The position numbers and the translations under genes were made by a program. Below, piece by piece: positions 2,948-20,094 of a stretch of 22,106 nt of DNA; the stretch's first letter is position 1, and every line of letters starts with the position of its first letter. The stretch comes from a candidate division KSB1 bacterium (GTDB taxonomy: Bacteria > Zhuqueibacterota > JdFR-76 > DREG01), in the NCBI GenBank assembly GCA_022566355.1, contig JADFJB010000082.1, positions 1 to 22,106 on the forward strand, written 5' to 3'. The notes beneath the pieces were generated by a model. It was given only the letters and a program-made list of their open reading frames with translations, made no database searches and had not been told where the DNA came from.

Positions 2948-3055
2948 CTAATCTATTCCCCTCCTTGCTAAGGAGGGGTTAGGGGAGGTTTTTTGAAATG
3001 TTACAATAATTATGTAATTTTTTATACACTGTCGGGTTTGAAAACGAACTTTCAT
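2948..3055 (-). pseudogene. Stub of a DUF433-linked toxin-like gene, running into a repeat
   Basis: The ATG at 3055-3053 overlaps the TGA of the DUF433 gene as ATGA, a classic coupling arrangement. The product would begin MKVRFQTRQCIKNY and stop after 35 residues. DUF433 genes are commonly followed by a DUF5615 PIN-like gene whose product often starts MKxRFQ, so the position and first residues suit a truncated partner. From about residue 22 the codons are made by the palindromic repeat (KTSPNPSLARRG). The identification rests on a few residues and on position, so it is tentative. Confidence 0.35.
2953..2990. repeat. Palindromic dispersed repeat, copy 3
   Basis: CCCCTCCTT (2958-2966), loop GCT, AAGGAGGGG (2970-2978), then TTAGGGGAGGTT. 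It differs from copy 1 at only a few positions and has the same orientation. It provides the tail of the stub gene that overlaps DUF433 and appears to have replaced the rest of that gene. Confidence 0.85.
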
Positions 3056-3366
3056 TCTTGTGAAATCTGAATTTGTCTGCGAGCCTCACCCATTTTCTTA
3101 GAAAAGGCTGTTTCATTGGTATTTTTATGGAGAGTCTTGAACTCAGATTCAGCATTTTTGAGATAAACATTTATTTCCACCCTATGACTTAAATAATAAG
3201 TAATTGCTCCATAAACTTGCTCTAACGTAAGAACAGGAAAACACTCTGCGACAATAGTTTCCGGAGCCAGACCGTCCAAAAAGGCAAACACTACCGAATC
3301 AAGCGAGACCCGTGTTCCTGAAATCCAAAAACAATCATCGCGTTTTTCTACATATTGATTTTCCAT
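3052..3366 (-). CDS. DUF433 family protein, antitoxin-like
   Basis: About 104 residues from ATG 3366. The N-terminal two thirds hold the DUF433 core: YVEKRDDCFWISGTRVSLDS, then FLDGLAPETIVAECFPVLTL, EQVYGAITYYLSHR and EINVYL. DUF433 folds as a small winged/helix-turn-helix protein and usually sits before a DUF5615 PIN-like ribonuclease gene, giving a VapBC-like toxin-antitoxin pair; antitoxin function here is inference from the family. An in-frame GTG at 3396 would add ten residues (MKLKLNNEQI) that lie outside the domain. The partner gene begins with an ATGA overlap but is cut short, so this may be an orphan antitoxin. The C-terminal 30 residues are polar and probably unstructured. Confidence 0.8.
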   Translation of the reverse strand: MENQYVEKRDDCFWISGTRVSLDSVVFAFLDGLAPETIVAECFPVLTLEQVYGAITYYLSHRVEINVYLKNAESEFKTLHKNTNETAFSKKMGEARRQIQISQE

Positions 3367-3412
3367 AATTTGCTCATTATTTAACTTGAGTTTCACATAA
3401 GGTTTTTCATGG

Positions 3413-3485: not shown

Positions 3486-3882
3486 GGCTGATAAAAATGA
3501 TAATTTTACAAAAGATTATGCTATGTCGAGCTCACGTTATTTACGTCTTTCATTTGTATGAAAAGATATAAGATAATTTCAAACTATCAATTACCATTGT
3601 TAATTCAATAAGGATAACGCCCTTGTAAGTGAAAGCCAACCATTGGTTTTTTCTGTAAGCAAAGTCTCTCCAAAATAGTCTTGTATTTCAACTGCCATTT
3701 TATTACATTTCAAATAATTTTTTAGGAATTCAACTATACTGATTGAAATGGGTGTTTTTGGTTAGTAGATGGTTTCCGATAGTTCGAATGATTTTGAGAT
3801 TATTGTTTTTTTGCAAACCATTCCGATGAAAAGGTTATCCAATTTTTTATTTTTCCAGGCACATTTGAACACAAAAATAAAA
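3486..3882. other. Intergenic stretch without a convincing gene
   Basis: AT-rich sequence between the DUF433 cluster and the GH2-like gene. On the minus strand an ATG at 3698-3696 opens a 32-codon frame to TAA at 3600 (MAVEIQDYFGETLL...), and the frame stays open upstream without a start. It reads like a protein tail and may be a gene remnant, but I recognise nothing in it. An upstream extension of the next gene, from ATG 3769, also falls here. Confidence 0.35.
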
Positions 3883-6414
3883 ATGTCTTTTAAACCATGT
3901 TTCGTTTTTATATTCTTCTGTTTAGCGGCACTGTTTTTTTGGTTGCCGTTGTATTCACAAGAACCTGACCAAACTTTAGATACTGAAACAAGGCAGGTAA
4001 TCGATCTAAACGGAGAGTGGTCGTTTAAGAAAAAGGGTGAAACTGAGTGGCGCAAAATCGTGCTGCCTTCACCAACTGAAGAAATAGGGGATCTTTTTTT
4101 CCGTCGCACTTTTGAAATTCCGGCAAACATAGGCGATTCACAGTTTTTCATTGTTTTTGAAGGAATTAATTTTTCTTCACGAATTAAGCTAAATGATCAA
4201 TATCTTTCTTCTCAATCTTATGGACATACTTCGATATTAACACCGATTCCAAAGAATTTGCTTCGATTGCGTGGTAGCAATGTGCTGGAAGTTGAAGTGA
4301 ATACGAGTTTGGGGAATAAAACCATTCCTTTACGTCAGGCTTTATTATCGCCGTTACCTTTGCGAGGCATATTTCGTGATATTTATTTGACGATCCAGCC
4401 GGCTATGACAATCAGTTCGGTTGTGGTCAAAAGTGAGCTGGCTAATTCATTGTCTGCCGCCAAATTGGATTTAGAAATAGAGATACTCTCAACGGAATTA
4501 GCTTTTAATACGATGGTGGCTGACAACGATTCCCCTAAGGTTGTTTGTGTTGTGCGAGATGAAGAATCAAATCAAATCCTGGCTACAGCGGAACAAAGCT
4601 TCCGGTTGAACAATGAGTTGAAGAATCAAATCCAATTGTCCATGGAATTTCAAAATCCAAAATTATGGAGCCTTGTTTTCCCCAATCGGTATTCGGTTGA
4701 GGTCAGGATTTTGTATAAAAACAAATTGATCGATGAAGTTGAACAAAAAATTGGAATCAGGGAATTAAAACTGGATAACAATCATTTGTTTTTAAACGGC
4801 GAGCTTTTACCTGTCAAAGGTGTAACATTCCTGGAAAACAAATCAAGGATATTGACCGATGAGCAGGCTCTCACACTTCTCCAAGAAATCAAATCAAATG
4901 GTTTTAATACCATAACCTGGCACAACCCCCCGCCGGCCCATGTCCTTGAGTTGACCGACTCATTGGGCTTACTCAATATTTTGCGAGTCCCATTATGGAA
5001 TGTTCCCGGCGCTGTTTTATCCGACCCGGAGTTTAGCGGACGAATGAGTAGTTTACTTGGCAAGATGGTTCAATTGGCTTCAAATCATGCATCCGTGCTG
5101 GCGCTCTCGCTGGGTGATGGATTCGATGCTTCTTCCGTAGGGACGCAATCATTTATATCGGACCAATTGAATGTAGTCGGGACTGAAAACCAATTTTTCA
5201 TCACGTCCGGATTTCGTAATTATGATTCCTCATTGTCCGAATTTGCTTTTGATTTCATCACTTTTAATCTAACTCTGCATGGTTACAGTGACTGGAGAAA
5301 ATGGTTGGCAAACTGGATAGACGAAGGCTCGGGAATACCCATACTTTATTCTGATATTTCAGTACCATATACTGCCACAAGGTCTGACAGTGAAAATGTA
5401 TCCATCTACGAAGCGATTCAAGCACAAAAGTTAAAGAAGTTAATTGAAGATATCCAAAAGGAACCCACCCTGGGCTTTATGTTAGCCGCGCTCTATGATT
5501 GGCAAATATCTTATCCTTCTGTACTCTCTCTCAAAACCTCGGACAGAAATTTGTTGCCGATCGGGCTATTTACAGTAAGCAACGAACCGAGAATGTCCTT
5601 AAGCATGATGCAAAACTTAAATAAAGGGACGGGGTATCAATTTGAATTTCAGCAAAACACAATCGAGCGGTTTGACACAATATTTATAGTATATGGATTG
5701 ATTGTTATTGTCCTCTTTCTCATTTTCTTTCGCAGGGACCATCGCCTAAGAGGCAATTTTATACGAATACTTTCAAGGCCTTTTGGATTTTATATTGAAT
5801 TAAAAGATGGAAGAAAAATCCCCTGGTTTACTACTTCGATCATTTTAATTACATCGGCATCCAGTTGGGGTTTAATTCTTGGATCGGTATTTTCTTTTTT
5901 GCGCCATCATCCGTTATTCGATTTCTTAATATCTCAATTTTCTCCATCAAACACTGTAAATATTGTTTTGATTTATATGAGTTGGTACCCAATATTGGGC
6001 ATAATCGGTTTTAGTTTATGGACAGCTGTTCTGATTACTGTTTTAGCATTTTATGTTTTGTTTCTTTCCCTTATTACGCGTCGGCGTCTCTCAATTAGAA
6101 ATTCTTTGACGCTAGTTTATTGGGAAAGTTGTATATTTATTTTTTTATTACCTGTTGCATTTATATTTTATAGATTGATGATTATTTCACCAATTCGATT
6201 GCTTCTATTATTGCTCTTGATTATTTTTCTAATTTGGTACATCTATAGAATCTTCACTGGCATTCGCACGGTATTTACAATTAGACCCGGAATGACTATC
6301 GCTTTATTTGTGGGCATTCCAATAATCTTGATTTTAGTGCTAGATATTTTGTACAATCAAAGTAATGGTTTGAATGCACAATTGGTTTATCTTATCCACC
6401 TGTGGTATAATTAA
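3883..6414 (+). CDS. Secreted GH2-like protein with degenerate catalytic site fused to a polytopic membrane domain
   Basis: Residues are counted from ATG 3883, chosen because a signal peptide (MSFKPCFVFIFFC... LYSQ) follows at once; the frame is open back to ATG 3769, which would bury it. Residues 30-150 match the GH2 sugar-binding jelly roll (VIDLNGEWSFKKKGETEWR, FFRRTFEIP, GINFSSRIKLNDQYL), 155-300 an Ig-like sandwich, and about 300-560 a TIM-barrel (FLNGELLPVKGVTFLENKS, NGFNTITWHNPP). Where GH2 enzymes carry the acid/base Asn-Glu (SLGNE), this reads SLGDG, Glu being replaced by Gly413, so hydrolysis by the normal mechanism is unlikely. From about 598 to the end there are several strongly hydrophobic segments (FIVYGLIVIVLFLIFF and others) with Arg-rich loops, vaguely Yip1-like. 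I infer an external carbohydrate-binding module anchored in the inner membrane. No obvious partner gene is adjacent. Confidence 0.78.
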   Translation: MSFKPCFVFIFFCLAALFFWLPLYSQEPDQTLDTETRQVIDLNGEWSFKKKGETEWRKIVLPSPTEEIGDLFFRRTFEIPANIGDSQFFIVFEGINFSSRIKLNDQYLSSQSYGHTSILTPIPKNLLRLRGSNVLEVEVNTSLGNKTIPLRQALLSPLPLRGIFRDIYLTIQPAMTISSVVVKSELANSLSAAKLDLEIEILSTELAFNTMVADNDSPKVVCVVRDEESNQILATAEQSFRLNNELKNQIQLSMEFQNPKLWSLVFPNRYSVEVRILYKNKLIDEVEQKIGIRELKLDNNHLFLNGELLPVKGVTFLENKSRILTDEQALTLLQEIKSNGFNTITWHNPPPAHVLELTDSLGLLNILRVPLWNVPGAVLSDPEFSGRMSSLLGKMVQLASNHASVLALSLGDGFDASSVGTQSFISDQLNVVGTENQFFITSGFRNYDSSLSEFAFDFITFNLTLHGYSDWRKWLANWIDEGSGIPILYSDISVPYTATRSDSENVSIYEAIQAQKLKKLIEDIQKEPTLGFMLAALYDWQISYPSVLSLKTSDRNLLPIGLFTVSNEPRMSLSMMQNLNKGTGYQFEFQQNTIERFDTIFIVYGLIVIVLFLIFFRRDHRLRGNFIRILSRPFGFYIELKDGRKIPWFTTSIILITSASSWGLILGSVFSFLRHHPLFDFLISQFSPSNTVNIVLIYMSWYPILGIIGFSLWTAVLITVLAFYVLFLSLITRRRLSIRNSLTLVYWESCIFIFLLPVAFIFYRLMIISPIRLLLLLLLIIFLIWYIYRIFTGIRTVFTIRPGMTIALFVGIPIILILVLDILYNQSNGLNAQLVYLIHLWYN

Positions 6415-6641
6415 TGTTAAGACAAAGAATTCTAAGCTTTTCACAGGCGGATAGGTAAAATATGGAGTTTGAATCCTGCCAGGTCTGGTTCAAATAATTC
6501 AGAAATGACCGTAAAAATAAGAGCCAAATATTTTTGAATATTTTCACCCTGTTGCATAATTTTTATCTTGCAGGATAAATTTGGTATTTCGATATTGTTT
6601 CGGGATTCGATAATTTATTTTAGGATTTAATTTATAAATTT
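6415..6641. other. Intergenic stretch after the GH2-like gene
   Basis: No gene, RNA or clear terminator could be recognised in these AT-rich bases. They lead into the inverted-repeat element at 6642. The whole gap between the two genes is 441 bases. Confidence 0.4.
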
Positions 6642-6823
6642 ATTAACCTGGATAATTCATAGCCACCAAGACTCAAAGACACAAAGTTTTAAAAATAAAG
6701 GTTAAGAAAGATTGATTTTTTATATCGACCGAAAATTGGTTCATAGTAATCTTCTTTATAACTTTCATATTCTTAGTGACTTAGAGTCTTTGTGGCAAAA
6801 ATTCATGAATAGTGCAGGTTAAT
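6642..6823. repeat. 182-bp MITE-like element with long terminal inverted repeats
   Basis: ATTAACCTG (6642-6650) is mirrored by CAGGTTAAT (6815-6823), and ATTCAT lies just inside both. Further in, 6662-6686 (GCCACCAAGACTCAAAGACA...) and the reverse complement of 6772-6796 (GCCACAAAGACTCTAAGTCA...) agree at about 20 of 25 positions. No frame inside encodes anything recognisable. Elements with CCACCAAGACTCAAAG-type ends are known as dispersed intergenic repeats. The right end is only 32 bases from the smc start, so the element probably carries or replaces part of the smc promoter region. Confidence 0.8.
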
Positions 6824-6855
6824 AATTCAGATCAATAATAAATGAACGGCTTTCA

Positions 6856-9800
6856 ATGTATTTACAAAAATTAGTAATTCAGGGTTTTAAATCGTTCGCA
6901 AAAAAAACCGCATTGGAATTTAATGGAGGATTAACTTGTGTCGTCGGACCCAACGGCAGTGGCAAATCCAACATAGTAGATGCTGTTCGTTGGGTACTGG
7001 GTGAACAGAAAGCCAGCGTGTTGCGAGGCGAGAAAATGGAAAATATAATTTTTTCCGGATCGAAATCGACCAGGCAGCTCGGGATGGCGGAAGTTTCTAT
7101 TACCATTGAAAATACAAAGGATTTATTGCCAACCGAATTTAAAGAAGTCGAAATCACACGCAGACTTTATCGCTCCGGAGAGAGTGAATACTTAATTAAC
7201 AAAACTCCCAGTCGTTTAAAGGATATTAACGATTTGTTTCTTGATACCGGGATAGGACCTGATTCTTATTCGGTTATTGAGTTAAAAATGGTTGAAGCTA
7301 TATTAAACAGCAAATCAGACGAACGAATGAGGTTATTCGAAGAAGCGGCAGGAATTAATAAATATAAACATCGTAGAAGCGAAGCCTTTCGAAAGTTGGA
7401 TTCTACGGCAGTGGATTTGAATAGGGTCAATGATATCATCTCAGAAATCGAACGTAACACCAATGCTTTAAAACGACAGGTTAACAAGGCCGAAAGATAT
7501 AAAATTCTTTCTAATGCAATCGAAGAATTGGAAATTCGTGCCGCTTCATTGGAATTCGCAGCCATCCAAAAGAAATTGATCCCATTGAAAGACGGGTTGG
7601 TTCAAAGCGAAGACAACATGCAAAAGAACCGGACACGAATTTTTAAGGATGAAGCGGAGATTGAAACGTTTAAGTTGAACTTAACGAGAATGGAAGATAA
7701 GCTGGCGGATATACAAAACGAACTAATGTCTTCTACCGATTCGCTTCATCAAAAAGAAAGTCAGAATGTCGTAAACCAGGAAAGGATTAAAGCGCTGGAA
7801 GAAAAAATCATTCGTTATTCTCAAGAAAAGGAGCAATTACAGCGTAGGATTGAATCTTTACGACAACGTGTGCAGGAGGGAGAACCCGAGCTTATTGTTT
7901 TGGGTGAGAAAGTAGATAGTGTAAGAATGAAGCACCGGAAACAAAAACAAGAGCTGGAAGAATTTGAAAAAACATTGGCCCGGCGTCGTCTCGAAGTCAA
8001 TGAAGCTCGAATGAATTTGATCGAGCTCATGAAAACAATTAGCGAAAAAGAGAAAGAGCGAAATGCCCTGGAAACTGAATTACTGCATTTGGAAGGAAGA
8101 GAAGAACAGCTTACGGAGGAAATTGAACGCTTGGAAGAAGAGGACAAAAAACTTGCTTCCGACCAGGATATTTGGGTAAAAAAAGAAAGTGAGTTGTTGA
8201 TAGAAACTCAGCTTGTAGCTTCTGAGCTGGAAAGTAACAACAAGGTTAAGGAAAGCCTGGATCTTGAAATCATTCAATTAAGGGAAAACCGGGCTAAGCT
8301 TGAAAATAAAATACAATCTCTTAAGGATCAAGAATCGTTTCTTTCAAACTTGATTGAGACCAATGAAGGTTATCCAGGCGGTGTTCAATATATTTTGAAC
8401 AATGCCAAATCTTTTCCTGGTGTTCTTGGCATTTTGAGTGATTTAATTTCAGTACCCAAAAAGTTTCGTCCGGCAGTTGAAGCCATTTTGGGTGAAAAGT
8501 CTTTTTTTGTCATTGTCAAAACTGAACACGATGCTTATCAAATTATTGATCAACTCAGGAAAGGGAAATTAGGCCAGGCTACTTTTTTGGTTCTCGATAA
8601 GTTTGCTTTTACGGTCTCTTCTACAAGCCAAAATATTCCTGATAGTACATCTGTAATTGGTAAAGTCCGGGATCTGATTCAGGTTCCTAAAGAACTCGAT
8701 CCTCTAGCGGATTTTCTATTTGGCTCCTATTTACTAGTCGACAATCCAAAAAATCTCCAACAGATTAAAAAAGAAATTAAAACTAATGATTGGAATTTTG
8801 CAACCCTGGACGGTGAAGTATCACAACCATCAGGAGTGATACGCTATGGGCGTTCCGGGGATGGTGATTCTGTGAATGCCATTTGTCGGTTGGATCAATT
8901 AAATGAAATTCAACAGCAGGTTGTGGATTGTGGTAAAAGCGTGAATGTGTTAGAAAAGCAAATTGAAAAACAAGTAGAAAAAACTAAAAAGCTGGATTCG
9001 GAAATTGAAAATTGGACTCAGAAAAAGAAGGAAACCGAAGAAGAGTACCAGCAAAGCAGGATCAATACTGTTCAAAAACAATCTACAAAATCGAATGTTA
9101 AAAGCAGGTTAGACTCCACTCGAGAAGAAATCGGAAATGTGCGGGATAAAATATCACAAATATTCGAACGGATCGAAAAATTACGACCGGAGATAGATAA
9201 ATTTGCACAAAACCGTAGAAAACATGAAGATCAAGTTGAGTTATTGCAGGGAAAACTGGAAGAGTATGAAACTCAAAGAAATCGCTTTGCCAACGAAGTG
9301 TACGAGTTAAACGTGAACCTCGTAAAGGCTTCCAGTGAGTTCAATAATTTAGAAGCTGATGTAAAAAGAATGAAACGAACCCTGGTTGAATTTGAATCTA
9401 CAATTGTTACGCGAGAAAAAGAACTTGTTGAAAGCCAGGTTGAGATAAAACATTTGCAAACGGACATTGAGCGTCTTTTTAGTGAAACTGAGGAGATTCG
9501 TGTCCGGAAAGATGAATTGTTAGAAAGACGATCGAGACAACAGCAAGAATACCAGCAGCTTCAGGAGTTAATGTCGACTAAAGAATCCACTTTGAAGAGT
9601 ATACGCGATTTAAGTCAAAGCTCGATTGATACTTTGCAGGAGAAGCGGTTGCAGCTTTCCGAATATGAGATGAGAATCAAGAACATACGTGTAAATATCA
9701 AAGATAAATATTCTTTGGAAATAACACCGATTCAAGCAGAATCTCCCGATGAAATCGATTCTATCCGGATTTCGTTGGATGAGAAAAAAGAAAGACTCAA

Positions 9801-10440
9801 TTTGTTTGGACCGGTTAATTTGCTGGCATTGGAAGAGTTCCAAAAGGAAAGAGATCGACTTGAATTTTTAAAACGCCAAAAGAGTGACCTGGATGAAGCC
9901 AGGTCAACATTAATTGAAACCATCGATATTATTAACCAGACAGCCAGTGAAAAGTTTGAAGAAGTTTTTGATAAAATTCGTGAAAATTTTCAAAAGAATT
10001 TTTCGGTATTTTTTGAAGGTGGTGAAGGAGATTTGCGGATTTTATTCGATAAAGACGATCCACTTTCAGCGAAAATTATGATAATGGCGCGACCCAGCGG
10101 TAAAAGGTTGGGGGCAATTGAATTGTTATCAGGGGGTGAAAAAGCTCTTACTGCGATCTCTCTTCTCTTTTCTATTTACCAGGTGAAACCAAGCCCGTTT
10201 TGTATTTTAGATGAAGTGGATTCACCACTTGATGATTTAAATGTACAAAGGTTTTTAAGGGTGTTACGAAAATTTTCGGACCATACACAATTTATCCTGG
10301 TCACTCATAACAAAATTACCATGGAAGCTGCTGATTTTATATATGGTGTGACTATGCAGGAAGAGGGAGTATCTAAGCTGGTATCCGTAGAACTGGTTAA
10401 AGAAAAGATGGAATCCGAACAATTAAACAAATCAAATTAG
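6856..10440 (+). CDS. smc: Chromosome segregation protein SMC
   Basis: A full-length 1194-residue SMC ATPase, which with ScpA and ScpB (not in this window) forms the bacterial condensin that loops and compacts newly replicated origin regions. The N-terminal head opens MYLQKLVIQGFKSFAKKT and has Walker A GPNGSGKS at residues 31-38. A first coiled coil runs from about 170 to 500, the hinge from about 520 to 660 (LGILSDLISVPKKFRPAVEA, ILGEKSFFVIVKT), and a second coiled coil to about 1000. The C-terminal head holds the signature LSGGEK (1091-1096) and Walker B CILDEVDSPLDD (1116-1127), the Glu1120 being the catalytic one. ATG 6856 gives the standard N terminus although no strong ribosome site precedes it. 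The stop TAG at 10438 is 13 nt before the next start. Confidence 0.98.
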   Translation: MYLQKLVIQGFKSFAKKTALEFNGGLTCVVGPNGSGKSNIVDAVRWVLGEQKASVLRGEKMENIIFSGSKSTRQLGMAEVSITIENTKDLLPTEFKEVEITRRLYRSGESEYLINKTPSRLKDINDLFLDTGIGPDSYSVIELKMVEAILNSKSDERMRLFEEAAGINKYKHRRSEAFRKLDSTAVDLNRVNDIISEIERNTNALKRQVNKAERYKILSNAIEELEIRAASLEFAAIQKKLIPLKDGLVQSEDNMQKNRTRIFKDEAEIETFKLNLTRMEDKLADIQNELMSSTDSLHQKESQNVVNQERIKALEEKIIRYSQEKEQLQRRIESLRQRVQEGEPELIVLGEKVDSVRMKHRKQKQELEEFEKTLARRRLEVNEARMNLIELMKTISEKEKERNALETELLHLEGREEQLTEEIERLEEEDKKLASDQDIWVKKESELLIETQLVASELESNNKVKESLDLEIIQLRENRAKLENKIQSLKDQESFLSNLIETNEGYPGGVQYILNNAKSFPGVLGILSDLISVPKKFRPAVEAILGEKSFFVIVKTEHDAYQIIDQLRKGKLGQATFLVLDKFAFTVSSTSQNIPDSTSVIGKVRDLIQVPKELDPLADFLFGSYLLVDNPKNLQQIKKEIKTNDWNFATLDGEVSQPSGVIRYGRSGDGDSVNAICRLDQLNEIQQQVVDCGKSVNVLEKQIEKQVEKTKKLDSEIENWTQKKKETEEEYQQSRINTVQKQSTKSNVKSRLDSTREEIGNVRDKISQIFERIEKLRPEIDKFAQNRRKHEDQVELLQGKLEEYETQRNRFANEVYELNVNLVKASSEFNNLEADVKRMKRTLVEFESTIVTREKELVESQVEIKHLQTDIERLFSETEEIRVRKDELLERRSRQQQEYQQLQELMSTKESTLKSIRDLSQSSIDTLQEKRLQLSEYEMRIKNIRVNIKDKYSLEITPIQAESPDEIDSIRISLDEKKERLNLFGPVNLLALEEFQKERDRLEFLKRQKSDLDEARSTLIETIDIINQTASEKFEEVFDKIRENFQKNFSVFFEGGEGDLRILFDKDDPLSAKIMIMARPSGKRLGAIELLSGGEKALTAISLLFSIYQVKPSPFCILDEVDSPLDDLNVQRFLRVLRKFSDHTQFILVTHNKITMEAADFIYGVTMQEEGVSKLVSVELVKEKMESEQLNKSN

Positions 10441-10453
10441 GATAAGGTCCCTG

Positions 10454-11893
10454 GTGAATTTCTTCCTTTCATGCTGCAAATTTCAATCACCGTGTCGGTT
10501 GATACAGCTTATTCCTGTCTTTCTGGCATTTACAATTCTCCTTTTTGAAGATATATACCCCCAAGCAGCATCATCGGATGATCTTGTTTTTGATGTAGAC
10601 TATTCTCGCTTTCGTGCATCGGCAGATATGGTGTATTTAGAAGTATATTATTCCATTCCGCGTTTCCAGTTACAGTTTATAGAAGAGGGGAATCAGTTTG
10701 AAGCAATATTTATGATAAAAACTGAAATCTATAAAAATGATTCGTTAGCAATTGCCGATTCCATAATTAATATCACAACCGTGGATAGTTTATCACAGGT
10801 TACGAAAAGTCAAAATCTACTTAATCTCACCGGTTTTGCTATTCAAGAAGGCGATTACAAAATTGAAGTTTCGTTAAAGGATATGACCTCAAAGCGTATT
10901 GGCCGGCAATCCCTAGACCTTCGAATTCTTCCTTATCCTGAAGCTGAATTATCGATTTCGGATATTCAATTATCATCTTCCATCAATCTAAATAAAGAGC
11001 AACCGGATAAATTCACAAAAAACCATTATAGAATCATTCCCAATCCTGGCAGAATGTATGGCCTGGAAACCCCGATGCTCTATTTTTATGCTGAAGTCTA
11101 TAATCTGGATAATCAAGTTGGTGACAAGCAGTACAGGGTAAAATCTTCGATTCACAATGCAAATGGAGATGAGATTCGAACCTTACAAGAAAAAGTGAAA
11201 GAAAAGCCAGGCGCTTCGAGTGTTGAAGTTGTTGGATTTAATATTGTTAGTCTTAAATCAAACACATATATCCTACAACTTGAGGTGGAGGATTTAGCGA
11301 CTGGTAGTAAAACGAAGCGGACAAAAAAATTCTTTGTCTATCGTGAAGGAGATTATCAGCCTAATATGTTGGCCAATCAATTCAACAAAGATGCATTATT
11401 AAATTCTTTTGAGTACAAATTCTACGACGAACTTAACGAATCGGAAATTAACACTGAATTTCTAACGGCTAAATACCTGGCAACAAAGGAAGAAGTGAGC
11501 ATATATGACGGATTAGACTTGCAAGGGAAACGCGTTTTTATGAAATCTTTCTGGTTTGCACGTGACCAGGATCTATCTACACTGCAAAACGAATTTCGGC
11601 AACAATACCTGAATAATTTGAATTATGTTAATTCTTATTTCGGTAGTGGAAAGCCTGGCTGGAAATCTGAAAGGGGAAGAGTTTATCTTTTATACGGCAA
11701 ACCCGATGAAGTTGAAAGGCATCCAAGCACGCTTGAAAACAAGGGGTACGAGGTTTGGAATTACTTCCAAATCCAGGGAGGGATTTTCTTTGTCTTTGTA
11801 GATAACAGGGGGTTCGGTGAATACATTATGGTGCATTCCACTGCTCGTAATGAACTCCACGATTTTGATTGGCAAAGATGGTTGAGCGAATGA
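10454..11893 (+). CDS. GWxTD-domain secreted protein
   Basis: About 479 residues with an N-terminal signal sequence (hydrophobic RLIQLIPVFLAFTILL, cleavage probably near YPQA). The middle, about 45-300, is beta-rich and repeats phrases such as EGDYKIEVSLKD and SNTYILQLEVEDL, like extracytoplasmic sandwich domains. The C terminus, about 330-479, matches the GWxTD domain: SFWFARDQD, NEFRQQYLNNLNYVNSYF, GWKSERGRVYLLYGKPDEVE, YEVWNYF and FFVFVDNRGFG. The name-giving motif is GWKSERG at 402-408, so the usual Thr-Asp is Ser-Glu. The role of the family is unknown; it occurs in Acidobacteria, KSB1 and related groups. The GTG start is supported by AAGG at 10444-10447 and by spacing of 13 nt from smc, suggesting co-transcription. 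Confidence 0.85.
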   Translation: MNFFLSCCKFQSPCRLIQLIPVFLAFTILLFEDIYPQAASSDDLVFDVDYSRFRASADMVYLEVYYSIPRFQLQFIEEGNQFEAIFMIKTEIYKNDSLAIADSIINITTVDSLSQVTKSQNLLNLTGFAIQEGDYKIEVSLKDMTSKRIGRQSLDLRILPYPEAELSISDIQLSSSINLNKEQPDKFTKNHYRIIPNPGRMYGLETPMLYFYAEVYNLDNQVGDKQYRVKSSIHNANGDEIRTLQEKVKEKPGASSVEVVGFNIVSLKSNTYILQLEVEDLATGSKTKRTKKFFVYREGDYQPNMLANQFNKDALLNSFEYKFYDELNESEINTEFLTAKYLATKEEVSIYDGLDLQGKRVFMKSFWFARDQDLSTLQNEFRQQYLNNLNYVNSYFGSGKPGWKSERGRVYLLYGKPDEVERHPSTLENKGYEVWNYFQIQGGIFFVFVDNRGFGEYIMVHSTARNELHDFDWQRWLSE

Positions 11894-12653: not shown

Positions 12654-15600
12654 ATGAATGACCAGGTAGTATTAGATCTTAGCGTTCAAACGTTGATCAA
12701 TACAATTGGGCAGGGTTTTGGAATTATAGATAAAAATGAGAATATTTTATTCGTAAACCACGATTTTGCGAAAATCCTAAATTATGAACAGGGAGAATTA
12801 ATCGGGAAGAATATTGCTGAGATATTTTCTCCCACCCAGCTTGATTCCGTAAAGGACCAACTCTGTTTATCAGATTCTTCTGCCGAGATAAAAGTTCTTG
12901 ATCTAAATTTACGTACCAAAGAAAATGGTTCTAAGAAAATTGCTATTCGAATTATCCCCAATAATACAAATGAAGACAATGTTTTGGGAATGATTTGGAT
13001 GCAGCCTACAAACAACCAGGATTCGGAACCGGGAAACAAAGAATCCAAATTCACCGATTTTATAGAGAAATCTCTCGATGGTTTTTTTACGCATAATGGA
13101 GATCAGTTCTTTTATGTCAATGAACGCATGTGTAAAATTACCGGTTATTCTCGTGAAGAGCTTTATAACATTAAATTAATGGATTTGGTTTATGATGAAG
13201 ATCGGGAATATGTTGAAGATCTGGTTGAAAACAGGAAACTGGGCAAAGTAGTACCATATCGATATCGAACTAGGATTATTTGTAAAAATAAGAGTGTGCG
13301 TCAATGTGAAGTTTCAGCCATTAGGGTGAGTGAAAATAATCACATCGTTCAGGGTTGCATTCGCGATATTACCGACCAGGTCTTATTTGAAGAAGCTTAT
13401 AAAGAATCCGAACTAAGATTTCGAATGCTGACCCAATCCGCTAATAATGCAATCATTACCATAAATCATGAAAGATTAATCGTTTTTTTAAACAGTGCAG
13501 CTGAAAAGTATTTCGGTTATGAAGGCACAGAAAGTATCGGTCTTCAATTTGATCAATTACTTCCGGAAGATTTTTCCGATGAATTCAAAAATAGTCTAGA
13601 TGAGTATTTTCAAAAAGGGGAAAGCCAACTTTTTGATGGTGAGATCGAAACGAAAGGCGTTCGAAAAGATGGAAGCCAGTTTCCTGTTGCAATGTCACTT
13701 TCTACCTGGAAGGCATCGGGAGCTCATTATATAACCGCAATTATTCAAGATATTTCTGAGCGAAAAGAGGCTGAGCAGAAAATCAGTAAAATGAACGCCA
13801 TCTTAAAAGCTCAACAAGAAGCTACATTTGATGGGATTTTGGTACTTGGGCATTGTGGTGAAGTCGTGAGTTTTAATCAACGCTTTTTAGAATTGTGGAA
13901 ACTTTCTGAGAGCCAGGTTAAAGAGATGGACATGGTTTCTCTAATGGAACATGAATCGCAAAAGTTAAATAATACAGATGAATTTAACGAATGGACTGAA
14001 CTTATTCAATCTGATCAAGAATCGACTCGAGAAGGTGATATTTTAAAATTAAAAGATGGTAGGACTATTTCTCGAAATTCCTTACCAGTTAAAGGAAATG
14101 ATGGTACCATTTATGGCAGAGCGAATTATTATAAAGACATTTCAGAAGAAGTTGATAGCCATGAAGCCTTAAACAAAATGTACCAAGAAACCTTAGAGTG
14201 GAAAAATTCGCTTGAGACGATTAACAAGCTTTCTGAAATGTTAAATCAAATGCTAACGGTCGATGAAATTGCTTTAGTTCTCATTGAAAGAATTCATGGT
14301 TTAATAGAAGCCGATCAATCCTGGCTCTTTTTATGGAATGAAGCTGATTACTTACTTTACCCGGTATTTCAAAAAAACTTAAAGGTTAATAAATTATGGA
14401 AAAAGGGATCAAAGGGATATGCGATCCATTCAAATCAAGGGTTTGTAGGAGAAGTTCTGGAAAAGGGTGTAGGTTTAATTGTTAATGATTTAGAAAATGA
14501 TCCACGCAGTAAGATGGATCCATGTATTGGAGAGAATTCAAAATCGATCATTGCCGTTCCGCTTAAATTTGAATCAAGGCAAATTGGGGTGTTCGCACTC
14601 TATAGAAATAGTGATGCTCATTTTGAAGAAAAACATTTACAGGTGTTAAACATTGTTGCTAGACAGACAGCAATTGCAATTGAAGATGCGCTGATTTTAG
14701 ACGAACAAAAACGCCGGGCTGATCATTTTTATTGGATTAATCGAGTTACCAGGAGTATTGCAGATACTCTTGATTTTGATGAAATAGCAAAAATAATGAT
14801 CCGCTCCCTAAAGAAAGGTTTCAATTTTTTTGATGTTGTTATGGCGATTTATGACGAACAATCGGACGATCTGGTTATCACTCACTTTACCAGGAAAAGT
14901 AAAAGAGTAAAATCCGGTGTACATTTAAAAATTGAAGGTTTGATTAAGGACGCTTTACAAAATAATGATATCGTTAATATTTCAGAAAAAGATATTGATA
15001 GTTATAATTCCTTGATTCCGGGGCAAGGTCTGGTATTGCTGGTTCCTTTGAAAGTCAGGAATAAAGTGATCGGCCTATTTTTGATAAGAAGTGAATCAAA
15101 AGAACTTCCTGAGAATGATAGTAATACTTTGAAAATACTATCCGATCACTTTGCGATTGCCTTAGAAAATGCCAATTTGTACTTAAGTGAAAAGAAAAGC
15201 GCGGAGATTGCCCACAGTGCGAACGAAGCGAAAAGCGAATTCCTGGCAAATATGAGCCATGAAATCAGGACTCCCATGAATGGCATTATTGGAATGACTG
15301 AGCTATTGCTTCATACTGAATTGAGCAAAGAACAGGAAGAATTTACACAATCTGTGAGGTCAAGTGCGGATTCACTCCTCAATGTAATTAATGATATCTT
15401 AGATTTTTCAAAGATTGAGGCCGGTAAACTGGATTTGGAATTGTTTGATTTTGATTTAAGGTTAACTGTTGAGGATTTGGCTGATACATTGGCATATCGA
15501 GCGCATATCAAAGGGATTGAACTTAGCTGTTTTATTCATCATGATGTTTCTTCACCAATATTTGGCGACCCCGGAAGGTTGAGGCAAATTTTAATCAATT

Positions 15601-17171
15601 TAATCGGTAATGCTATTAAATTTACTTCGACCGGTGAAGTAAGTGTGAATATTCATCTCAAAAGTGAGACTAAATCAGAGGCAATGCTCGAATTTTCTAT
15701 TTCCGATACCGGAATTGGAATTAAGAAAGATCGATTAAAATTTATTTTTGAAAGTTTTACCCAGGCTGACGGTTCAACAACAAGACAATTTGGCGGAACA
15801 GGTCTTGGGCTGTCGATATCCAAAAGGCTTGTAGAAATGATGGGCGGCAATATAACCGTCGAAAGTGAGTATGGAAAAGGCAGTTGTTTTTCTTTTTGCA
15901 TCCCCTTTAAAAAGCAGGTTGGCCAAAAACGGCCGCCACAATATATAAATGCGGATTTTAAAGATCTATCTATTCTAGTCGTCGATGACAACAAAACCAA
16001 CCGATTTATTTTGTCTTCATACCTGAGCAGATTAGGCAGTAATCCGGTTGAAGCAGAAGGTGGTGTTGAAGCTTTTCAAGAGGTCAAATCTGGAATAAAG
16101 GCTGGTAAACATTTTGACTTGATCATTATGGATGTGCAAATGCCGGGAATGGACGGTTACCAGACTGTGAATTTGATTAAAGAGTGTATTGATTTGAAGG
16201 AAACGCCAATCATTATTCTAACCTCCATTGGTAATCGAGGTGATGCAAAACGATTTCAAGAATTAGGGTGTGCCGGATATTTAACCAAACCGATCAAACA
16301 ATCGCAATTGCATGATGTTTTAGTAACCGTTTTAAGCGGCACTGTCTCAGAAATTGAATCTGATTCAATTTTAACCCGTCATTCAATTCAAGAAGTTAAG
16401 AAACGTAATGTTCGAATATTGCTAGCCGAAGATCATCCGGTTAATAAACAGTTGGCTCTTAAAATATTGGAAAGAGGAGGATTTTACGCCGATTGCGTAA
16501 GTAATGGTCAAGAGGCTGTGGATGCTATTAAAAATACGCATTATGACATCATATTGATGGATATTCAAATGCCGGTGATGGACGGCTTTCAAGCAACAGC
16601 TCAAATTCGAAAATACCAGGAATCGGATCATGTTACAATTATTGCTATGACTGCCCATGCAATGAAAGGAGATGATAAGCGATGTATAGACGCCGGTATG
16701 GATGATTATTTATCTAAGCCTATTAATCCACAAAAGCTATTTGATATTATTAATAAGTGGACAGGTTTGAAAAAGGGTCCGGTGTTAATTGAAGTTAATA
16801 AGGAACCAAAGAATGGATCAGGAAAAAAACCGGTTGATTTATCCGTACTTATGGATGCTCTTGGTAATGATCATAAGGTAGTCAAAAGATTGATTCAAAT
16901 GTTTATTGATAATTCCCAGGATCGAAAACTATCCTTACAGAAGGCTATTGAATCTAAAGATTCCAAACAAGTTGAACATGAAGCTCATGCATTTAAAGGA
17001 GCAAGTGGCAGCGTTGGCGCAATGCCATTGTTTACATTTTGTGATGAGTTGGAAAAATATGGAAGAGATGATAATTTATCCTTAGCTGAAGTAAGCTATA
17101 ATAATGTTTTAAATGAGTTTGATCGTGTAAAAGATTTCCTCGAAAATTACTTAAAAGAACATACTAACTGA
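12654..17171 (+). CDS. Soluble hybrid sensor histidine kinase with PAS, GAF, two receiver and HPt domains
   Basis: A 1505-residue multistep phosphorelay protein. Four PAS domains occupy about 8-118, 130-245, 255-375 and 380-505, two GAF domains about 535-685 and 700-845. The HisKA block has [20 protein letters not shown] with phospho-acceptor His869. The ATPase domain shows [20 protein letters not shown] (N box), DTGIGI and [10 protein letters not shown]. Two receivers follow: LSILVVDDN with Asp1160, and [12 protein letters not shown] with Asp1303. A C-terminal HPt has [10 protein letters not shown] with His1445. No hydrophobic spanning segment is seen, so sensing is cytoplasmic; ligands of the PAS and GAF domains are unknown. 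The order resembles BarA/BvgS-type kinases. An output regulator is not adjacent. The start is supported by AAGGGGA ten bases upstream. Confidence 0.95.
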
Positions 17172-17750: not shown

Positions 17751-18734
17751 ATGGATTGGTTTGTTAAAGTACCGCGTTTAGAGCTTTCGAATTGGGCTCC
17801 TTCCGAAAATTGGGAAGGTCTGTTTGAAAGGTGGACCAAGAAGGGAGTTAAGGGAATCATTCTTCCCTTAAACTTGAAGGACGAAATTGAAAAAATATCC
17901 AGTATAATTCAATTGGCAAAATTAGGTAATGTTCAAGTATGGGTAAATCTGCCTGTTCTTAACAATCAGGCTGTTTCGGATCGCACCGAATTCGGAAAAA
18001 TAAAACATCGTACCGGGGAGATTTTTGATTTCCCGGCATGGTTTGCACCGATTTGTCCCTCAAATCTTGAATATCAAGATTATCTTGATGAAAAGATTGA
18101 AAATTCTCTAATGCATTTACCTATAGATGTTTGGCTTCTTGATTATGTGAGGTTTCCCTATTTTTGGGAACAGTGGGGCAATACCGTTCAAGAAGATGAA
18201 TTCCCGCCTTTTTGTTATTGTGTTGATTGTAAATTGTCATTTCAAAATTTAATGCATTTAAGTTTAGAGGACAGTACTGTGGTTCATCTTCAAAAATGGC
18301 AGAGCCGGGTTATTGAAAAGTTAATCGAAAGAATTTCCCGGAACATTAAAGGAGTTCACCCAAACTTACAAGTGGGTATGCAGATCCTACCACTGATGTC
18401 GCAAAAAAGACGCCATCCTAAATCTGAATGGGTTGGGCAGAATTTACAATCGCTGCAAAGACATGTTGATTTTTTTAGCCCATTGATGTATGGAAAACTT
18501 TTGGGTTTGTACCCAGACCAGATCCTTTCTTATTTAGTCGATTTTATCAGTACCCAAAAACAACCGGTTGTGCCATCTTTTCAAATTTCTTCTACGCGAT
18601 GGGATCGACAGAGATATGAAACTAAGGTGAAGTTGACTGATTTAGGGAATAGGTTAACCCCCCTGGGAATTGATGCGGCGACTCTATTTCATGCAAAAGA
18701 TTTTTTGAATCCTGAAAAAATTCAAAAGGAATAA
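17751..18734 (+). CDS. TIM-barrel glycoside-hydrolase-like protein of unknown substrate
   Basis: A 327-residue protein without signal peptide, so probably cytoplasmic. It resembles the glycosyl-hydrolase-like group related to GHL10 and DUF4015: strand-like ends GVKGIILPL (33-40) and VQVWVNLPVL (61-70), APICPSNLEYQDYL (99-112), then DVWLLDYVRFPYF (126-138), where Asp131 sits at the usual barrel active-site position. HVDFFSPLMYGKLLG (238-252) and PVVPSFQIS (272-280) fit later strands. FCYCVDCKLSF (154-164) carries three close cysteines, as in relatives with a C-x-C-x-x-C insert, possibly binding metal. ATG 17751 is the first start after an in-frame TGA at its -9 position; no clear ribosome site is seen. 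The substrate cannot be told from context. Confidence 0.65.
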   Translation: MDWFVKVPRLELSNWAPSENWEGLFERWTKKGVKGIILPLNLKDEIEKISSIIQLAKLGNVQVWVNLPVLNNQAVSDRTEFGKIKHRTGEIFDFPAWFAPICPSNLEYQDYLDEKIENSLMHLPIDVWLLDYVRFPYFWEQWGNTVQEDEFPPFCYCVDCKLSFQNLMHLSLEDSTVVHLQKWQSRVIEKLIERISRNIKGVHPNLQVGMQILPLMSQKRRHPKSEWVGQNLQSLQRHVDFFSPLMYGKLLGLYPDQILSYLVDFISTQKQPVVPSFQISSTRWDRQRYETKVKLTDLGNRLTPLGIDAATLFHAKDFLNPEKIQKE

Positions 18735-19011: not shown

Positions 19012-20094
19012 TTATAACCTTTCTCGTTCAAGAATCCATTTGGATGCAGCAAGCAGATCTATGGCAATGAAATCAGGATCTATGTCAAACTCTCCATCTT
19101 TTCCAGCATTGCCGGTTTCTACCAAAATTGTGCATAGCCCCGCATTTTTGCCGGCCAGGATATCACAGGTTTTATCTCCAATCATATAACTATTGACTGT
19201 ATTGATATTTAAATCCTCTATGGCTCGATCAATCAGTTTTGTCCCTGGTTTTCTACAACCACAATTTTCCGTTATAGAATGGGGGCAAAAATAGATTTTA
19301 TCGATCAAAATATTCTCTTCCTTTAACAAACCAAACATCATGCGATTCACTTTATAAAAATCTTCTTTGGTGAAATATCCCAACCCGATACCCGCCTGAG
19401 TTGTAATAATGACTAATTTAAATCCCATATTTTGAAGATTTTTAAGGCCAGGTAAAGCATTGGGGAGCAATTGTAACTTTTCAGGTTCATGTAAATATTC
19501 ATCATCCACGTTAATTGTACCGTCGCGGTCTAAGAATACTGCTGGCTGAAGTTTACTTTGGCTTACAGGAAAATAGGCAGCTCTTTCATATTCAATGATG
19601 ACATCATTTGTTTGGCCATGACTGCTTTGAATCTTATTAATTAGATCGGAAGATGATAGCGACGATTCAATAGGAATCAACAATATCTTGCCACCATATG
19701 ATTCAACAAGATTCCCGGAAGTAAGTTGATCCCGGGAATAATCTCCTGCTTTGATATATAGATGTGGTTTTAGGGCTTCAATATTTGCTTTATTTCTTCG
19801 CTCGTTGAAAACGAAGACATAGTTGACCATTTCTAATGCAGCGACTAATCTTGCTCTTTGTTCCTGGGGCACAATGGGTCTGTGGTTACCCTTATAGCGC
19901 CTGATGGAAGAATCACTATTGATCCCGACAATTAAAATATCACAATGTGACTTCGATTTTTCAAGGAATTCAACATGACCGGTATGTAACAGATCGAATG
20001 CGCCTGATGTAAAACCTATAGTTTGTCCACTCTCCCGCCAGTCTTGACTCAATTCAGCAAGTTCGTCACGTGATTGGATTTTATCTTTAATCAT
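19012..20094 (-). CDS. Bifunctional heptose-1-phosphate nucleotidyltransferase (RfaE2-like) / heptose-bisphosphate phosphatase (GmhB-like)
   Basis: A 360-residue fusion. Residues 24-145 are a cytidylyltransferase-like domain of the RfaE2/HldE C-terminal type: FTSGAFDLLHTGH (28-40) with the HxGH nucleotide motif, VGINSD, RPIVPQEQRARLVAALE and LYIKAGDYS. Residues 184-330 are a HAD phosphatase of the GmhB type: FLDRDGTIN (187-195; nucleophile Asp189, acid Asp191), TTQAGIGLGYF (231-241), the zinc ligands Cys270, His272, Cys278 and Cys280 in CPHSITENCGCRKP, and GDKTCD (306-311). In the ADP-heptose pathway GmhB removes the 7-phosphate and RfaE2 then activates C1, so one chain would do both steps, for lipopolysaccharide or another heptose glycan. 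Substrate and nucleotide are inferred from family. No gmhA or heptokinase is adjacent. The gene stands alone, divergent from the aminotransferase. Confidence 0.88.
   Translation of the reverse strand: MIKDKIQSRDELAELSQDWRESGQTIGFTSGAFDLLHTGHVEFLEKSKSHCDILIVGINSDSSIRRYKGNHRPIVPQEQRARLVAALEMVNYVFVFNERRNKANIEALKPHLYIKAGDYSRDQLTSGNLVESYGGKILLIPIESSLSSSDLINKIQSSHGQTNDVIIEYERAAYFPVSQSKLQPAVFLDRDGTINVDDEYLHEPEKLQLLPNALPGLKNLQNMGFKLVIITTQAGIGLGYFTKEDFYKVNRMMFGLLKEENILIDKIYFCPHSITENCGCRKPGTKLIDRAIEDLNINTVNSYMIGDKTCDILAGKNAGLCTILVETGNAGKDGEFDIDPDFIAIDLLAASKWILERERL

Follow-up and report, generated by a model that had tools for sequence, protein, structure and literature searches.

An ancient fusion of a predicted pseudo-glycosidase ectodomain with a Yip1-like membrane domain in several bacterial phyla

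A gene conserved in bacteria of at least four phyla encodes a protein in which an ectodomain with the GH2 fold, apparently devoid of a working catalytic pair, is continued in the same chain by a divergent Yip1-like membrane domain. The copy from which this study departs lies in a stretch of 22,106 nucleotides from a candidate division KSB1 bacterium (contig JADFJB010000082.1 of assembly GCA_022566355.1), referred to in its entirety as the window. The fold of the ectodomain, the loss of its catalytic pair, the strictness of the fusion, its conservation, its vertical inheritance and its gene neighbours were established computationally, and the gene is both ancient and single-copy. The GH2 and Yip1 parts are of known kinds; their fusion and its conservation across phyla are the new part as far as the open-licence literature goes, in which we found no description of them.

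Results and discussion

Domain architecture of the ectodomain

The fusion protein is encoded on the forward strand by an ORF of 881 residues that extends from the ATG at 3769 to position 6414. Translation could alternatively begin at 3883, which corresponds to Met39 of this ORF and would yield a product of 843 residues; this appears the likelier start, because a hydrophobic signal-like stretch comes right after it. The stretch in question (3883..3957, residues 39-63 of the 881-residue ORF), a putative signal peptide or signal anchor, is indicated by hydropathy, with the family average peaking at residues 48-60, and by a helix at 6-20 in the AlphaFold2 model, which uses the numbering of the 843-residue product. 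It precedes three forward-strand domains arranged in the order of GH2 enzymes: a jelly-roll, sugar-binding-like domain (residues ~70-211, 3976..4401), an immunoglobulin-like domain (residues ~212-332, 4402..4764) and a degenerate TIM barrel (residues ~333-620, 4765..5628).

Several lines of evidence bear on this assignment. In the window copy the Ig-like domain exceeds its Pfam cut-off (PF00703, Glyco_hydro_2, 45.4 bits), the jelly roll, visible as strands in the model, scores 26.0 bits at 99-211 against a cut-off of 28 (PF02837, Glyco_hydro_2_N), and the barrel reaches a sub-threshold 13.4 bits (PF02836); the latter two profiles match 29 and 27 of 34 relatives, respectively. A profile built from 34 relatives aligns over its whole range of 62-596 to GH2 beta-glucuronidases (6ncy, E 7e-61). 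The AlphaFold2 model, computed with 17 relatives (pLDDT 83, pTM 0.76), shows the sandwich, the Ig domain and the barrel, and VIA-align places its residues 34-582 on the beta-glucuronidase 6xxw with a Z of 35.1 (2.3 Å over 500 residues). Since Pfam, the family profile, AlphaFold2 and the VIA-align match to 6xxw agree, the predicted GH2 fold of the ectodomain is secure. The first-pass annotation, made from the sequence alone, had proposed that the jelly roll, Ig-like and barrel regions were retained, and each of these approaches bears it out. The solved beta-glucuronidases and beta-galacturonidases of family GH2 (6xxw, 6ncy, 6d8k, 3cmg) thus share with the fusion family the same three domains in the same order, at Z values of about 35, but the fusion family lacks their pair of acid/base and nucleophile residues and has an added C-terminal membrane domain. 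It is also remote from the named enzymes of the family, the best score against NCBIfam equivalogs such as GalA, LacZ and beta-glucuronidase being 105.9 bits vs a cut-off of 900.

Degeneration of the catalytic pair

In active GH2 enzymes the acid/base is a Glu that follows an Asn at the end of strand beta-4, and the nucleophile is a Glu within an S/T-E-F/Y-G motif. Where these enzymes have (W)S-x-G-N-E, the window protein reads S447-L-G-D-G451. Asp450-Gly451 (5116..5121, +) stands opposite the Asn-Glu pair of the solved GH2 enzymes 6xxw, 6ncy and 8dhe in two alignments, so that Gly451 occupies the acid/base position, in agreement with the earlier suggestion that a change from SLGNE to SLGDG had removed this residue. 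That suggestion covered the acid/base alone; our analysis adds the apparent loss of the nucleophile, as Asp529 (5353..5355, +) aligns with the Glu of the SEFG/TEFG motif in 6xxw and 6ncy. Structure prediction and comparison with a GH2 enzyme concur in finding the GH2 fold with neither catalytic Glu in the window copy, and no other Glu stands at either position.

Of the 77 aligned members, 13 have Glu at the acid/base position and 2 at the nucleophile position; none has both. Twelve of the 13 fall in one subclade (L143-L156) of the G192 phylum, a group that is probably Calditrichota; they carry motifs such as GNE or GQE, with the nucleophile replaced by Lys, Asn or His, a pattern that reads as stepwise decay of the catalytic pair. 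An initial estimate of near-universal loss of the acid/base Glu (present in 1 of 57 members of the first set) was dropped after 12 of 20 added sequences, mostly from this phylum, proved to keep it. As judged from the alignment, the pair is broken in the whole sampled family, by differing routes, and cleavage of sugars by the ectodomain is unlikely.

A divergent Yip1-like membrane domain

Beyond the barrel the chain continues for about 245 residues, close to the hydrophobic extension of about 240 residues noticed previously, and comprises a linking helix and five long helices. In a model of this region alone (pLDDT 87), the first helix, TM1 (5674..5736, +; model residues 9-29), connects the ectodomain to the core. 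A pair of short amphipathic helices follows, together with a conserved loop rich in Arg and Lys, and then come five long helices at 59-86, 114-142, 149-170, 180-209 and 213-239, the number expected of a Yip1 domain. This core (5764..6411, +) resembles PF04893: of 33 relatives, 16 match the Pfam Yip1 profile downstream of TM1 with E values of 1 or less, and one of them lies above the cut-off (33.2 vs 28.6 bits, E 6e-8, positions 2-167 of 173 in the profile). Among ten relatives viewed in detail one passes the cut-off, one falls just below it (28.3) and the rest give weaker matches or none, and the membrane sequence of the window copy itself has no Yip1 match in Pfam. DUF4271 gave matches in 2 of these 33 relatives, with a best E of 1e-4. 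A search of the PDB by sequence and by fold returned no similar solved structure for the membrane domain (VIA-align Z of at most 5.2, below the stated noise level for helical proteins).

From these matches, divergent Yip1-like appears a fair label for the domain. With the Yip1 family at large (PF04893; eukaryotic YIPF, bacterial and archaeal proteins) it shares the five-helix core, which the Pfam profile spans nearly end to end in relatives; it differs in its divergence, in the extra preceding helix and in the pseudo-enzyme of 600 residues that it bears, presumably in the periplasm. Elsewhere in these genomes the Yip1 profile mostly hits proteins of 185-380 residues. The loop after TM1 has, on family average, 7.9 Lys/Arg vs 2.7 Asp/Glu, a bias consistent with an exported ectodomain and with TM1 crossing from the periplasm to the cytoplasm.

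Phyletic distribution, inheritance and selection

A search for homologues sharing the C-terminal domain, together with their neighbours, recovered full-length relatives of the same architecture, once per genome. In the genomes searched, the membrane-domain profile detects one gene per genome, always within the fusion ORF if split and contig-end copies are set aside, and the ORFs around its matches represent the whole fusion, mostly of 810-980 residues. By phylum, the gene is present in 52 of 82 KSB1 genomes, 28 of 39 G088 genomes, 35 of 40 G192 genomes and 8 of 9 G171 genomes, with a few further occurrences outside these groups. It is absent from several KSB1 families and is therefore not essential to that phylum as a whole. 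The viral contigs contained no member of the family, and the library of defence systems gave no match. Pattern scanning of genome contigs from the window protein alone found no relatives, these patterns being too specific, and the full family alignment was too diverse to yield patterns; those derived from a subset led to 17 named loci.

The window belongs to a draft assembly of 213 contigs, which could be taken to favour a frameshift, assembly or prediction artefact joining two genes. The homologues refute this explanation, to which we assign practically no likelihood: the fusion recurs, free of internal stops, in scores of independent genomes of several phyla, including one single-contig genome of 5.0 Mb, and in homologues from at least four phyla both parts lie in the same gene. 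An assembly error is further contradicted because the membrane domain is never seen outside the fusion in the genomes searched, and an origin of the architecture by chance is excluded by its conservation in scores of genomes. The fusion is a trait of the family and not a peculiarity of one gene.

Alignment and tree comprised 77 members; two distant loci, L124 and L125, were left out, as the ORF caller gave no family member there, probably through masking by longer overlapping ORFs. In the tree, obtained by a quick method and with several long branches, the phylum groups cluster with 4 label changes, the fewest possible, as expected for vertical descent of the gene. Per-domain dN/dS values between the closest pairs indicate purifying selection in all domains (0.07-0.46). 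The membrane domain, at 0.07-0.24, is the most constrained; the jelly roll has values of 0.08-0.29, the barrel of 0.12-0.31 and the Ig domain of 0.21-0.46. Purifying selection on the barrel implies that, though inactive by prediction, it is still useful.

Gene neighborhoods

In the window the fusion gene is followed by smc, encoding the chromosome segregation protein (6856..10440, +; SMC_N, SMC_hinge), and then by a gene for a GWxTD-domain protein (10454..11893, +; TIGR04514, 92.9 bits). Both are conserved neighbours: in 41 of 76 loci smc is the next gene downstream, in the same orientation, and 26 loci have the GWxTD gene after smc. Fusion gene and smc are separated in the window by an AT-rich interval of 441 bp (6415-6855); among the first 29 loci measured, 21 have a spacing of 12-207 bp. 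The smc/GWxTD neighbourhood is common to the KSB1 and G192 phyla; in the latter smc comes next in every locus examined, one of which (L156) has pdxJ upstream. Two G171-phylum members have the GWxTD gene directly after the fusion. Overall, this gene is adjacent to the fusion, or separated from it by one gene, in three phylum groups or more. The G088 phylum has IMP dehydrogenase in place of smc; a GWxTD identity suggested for these downstream genes by their length was rejected on this account. In three loci of the KSB1 families f14 and f20 (L036, L037 and L039) the gene that replaces smc belongs to one cluster, whose member in L036 (5748-7568) is a CHAT-domain (caspase-like) protein.

The smc/GWxTD block is old; housekeeping-type neighbours alone do not show a shared function, and the cytoplasmic smc product may be a mere positional companion. 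GWxTD matches number 14 in the host genome and several in each of the 82 KSB1-phylum genomes, against none in 14 control genomes; co-occurrence of GWxTD and fusion genes within KSB1 is uninformative because GWxTD is found in every KSB1 genome. The neighbours in the loci examined are not genes of sugar uptake or degradation.

Other genes of the window include one for a secreted-looking BNR/Asp-box repeat protein (274-1740, +), one for a DUF433 protein (3052-3396, -) and one for a 1505-residue hybrid histidine kinase with several PAS, two GAF, HisKA, HATPase, two receiver and Hpt domains (12654-17171, +). The product of 17751-18734 (+) bears a weak, below-cut-off likeness to the DUF4015 and GHL10 putative glycosyl hydrolase domains. 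At 19012-20094 (-) a 360-residue protein joins a cytidylyltransferase-like domain to a HAD-type phosphatase, an arrangement that suggests synthesis of heptose-type sugar nucleotides.

Functional considerations

On balance, we lean towards an ancient inner-membrane protein in which a periplasmic pseudo-GH2 binding module is mounted on a Yip1-like base and which serves the upkeep of the envelope, not the breakdown of sugars. The signal segment would export the N-terminal half, so placing in the periplasm a GH2-shaped ectodomain with no working catalytic pair; TM1 would return the chain to the cytoplasmic side, and five further helices would build the Yip1-like domain. The ectodomain would most likely bind an envelope glycan or a partner protein, for example the neighbouring GWxTD protein, and its bound state might be passed to the Yip1-like domain, or the ectodomain might simply be anchored there. 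It is this topology, the binding and the role in envelope upkeep that we infer. The first-pass view, in which a polytopic membrane domain carries a pseudo-hydrolase ectodomain, is well supported; the carbohydrate-sensing or transport-related role that it attached to this is possible, but we found neither a transporter family nor a ligand or signalling output.

Precedents show that such designs exist. In 7TMR-DISM receptors a periplasmic jelly-roll-like sensory domain sits on a polytopic membrane domain. One such protein, RgsP of Sinorhizobium, acts in peptidoglycan growth at the pole (PMC7327166). The fusion does not appear to be a homologue of these receptors. Their membrane part comprises seven helices and is joined to a signalling module in the cytoplasm, whereas the ORF of the fusion ends right after the last helix, leaving no such module, and its ectodomain is a complete GH2 unit; 7TMR-DISM_7TM was not among the Pfam matches of the window copy or its relatives. 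A second precedent is provided by the animal heavy chains 4F2hc and rBAT, whose membrane-bound, glycosidase-fold ectodomains are described as fake or orphan alpha-glucosidases supporting amino-acid transporters (PMC8537225). This is an analogy and no homology; these proteins combine a GH13 fold and one membrane helix with a separate transporter subunit, in contrast to the GH2 fold and about six C-terminal helices of the fusion.

The heavy chains lend some weight to the idea that the Yip1-like part is itself a transporter or channel, with the dead GH2 part as a stabilising or trafficking ectodomain. A review of the Yip1 family, while reporting no function for its prokaryotic members, proposes for the family, these members included, a role as transporter, channel or receptor (PMC6682643), and the membrane domain of the fusion family has an invariant Arg and Trp. 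We nevertheless hold this explanation to be rather unlikely, given that the membrane domain matches no transporter family and no solved transporter fold, that the neighbours are not substrate-specific uptake genes, and that the heavy-chain precedent concerns GH13 and not GH2. Slightly better placed, if still unlikely, is an ectodomain that binds protein only, such as the GWxTD protein, with no sugar and with the GH2 fold as a plain scaffold. The free drift of both catalytic positions in the family is what would be expected of a pocket that no longer touches sugar, and the recurrent proximity of the GWxTD gene points the same way. Yet the family conserves the WGxG strand motif, the PPHP loop and D577, which indicates some remaining constraint on the pocket region, and the G192 subclade retains its GNE or GQE acid/base motif. 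At the other extreme, an enzyme with migrated residues, for instance with Asp450 or Asp453 as acid and Asp529 as nucleophile, might be read into the Asp at the nucleophile position of the window copy and into the presence of Asp453 in 21 of 57 relatives. Asp529 is rare, however, most relatives having Ser, Gly, Asn, Lys or other residues in that column, and the sequence alignment reveals no alternative acid or other migrated catalytic residue kept family-wide; we regard continued catalysis as very improbable.

Conclusions

The preferred reading, a pseudo-GH2 binding module on a Yip1-like base, also admits a bolder form, which we rate as distinctly unlikely: that in several FCB-group phyla the protein, encoded in a conserved smc/GWxTD block, serves as a core envelope factor, a dead beta-glycosidase that reads the state of periplasmic envelope glycan and relays it via a Yip1-type domain. 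If true, this glycan-reading role would be the first defined role for a prokaryotic Yip1-type domain. On the practical side, its GH2 domains could cause the gene to be counted as a sugar-degrading enzyme, which would overstate the carbohydrate-degrading capacity of these uncultured phyla. To our knowledge, the membrane pseudo-glycosidases described so far are mainly animal proteins. With an ancient single-copy gene that joins such an ectodomain to a Yip1-like domain, shared by four or more bacterial phyla and nearly universal in one, the bacterial function of Yip1 domains can be approached through a defined protein.
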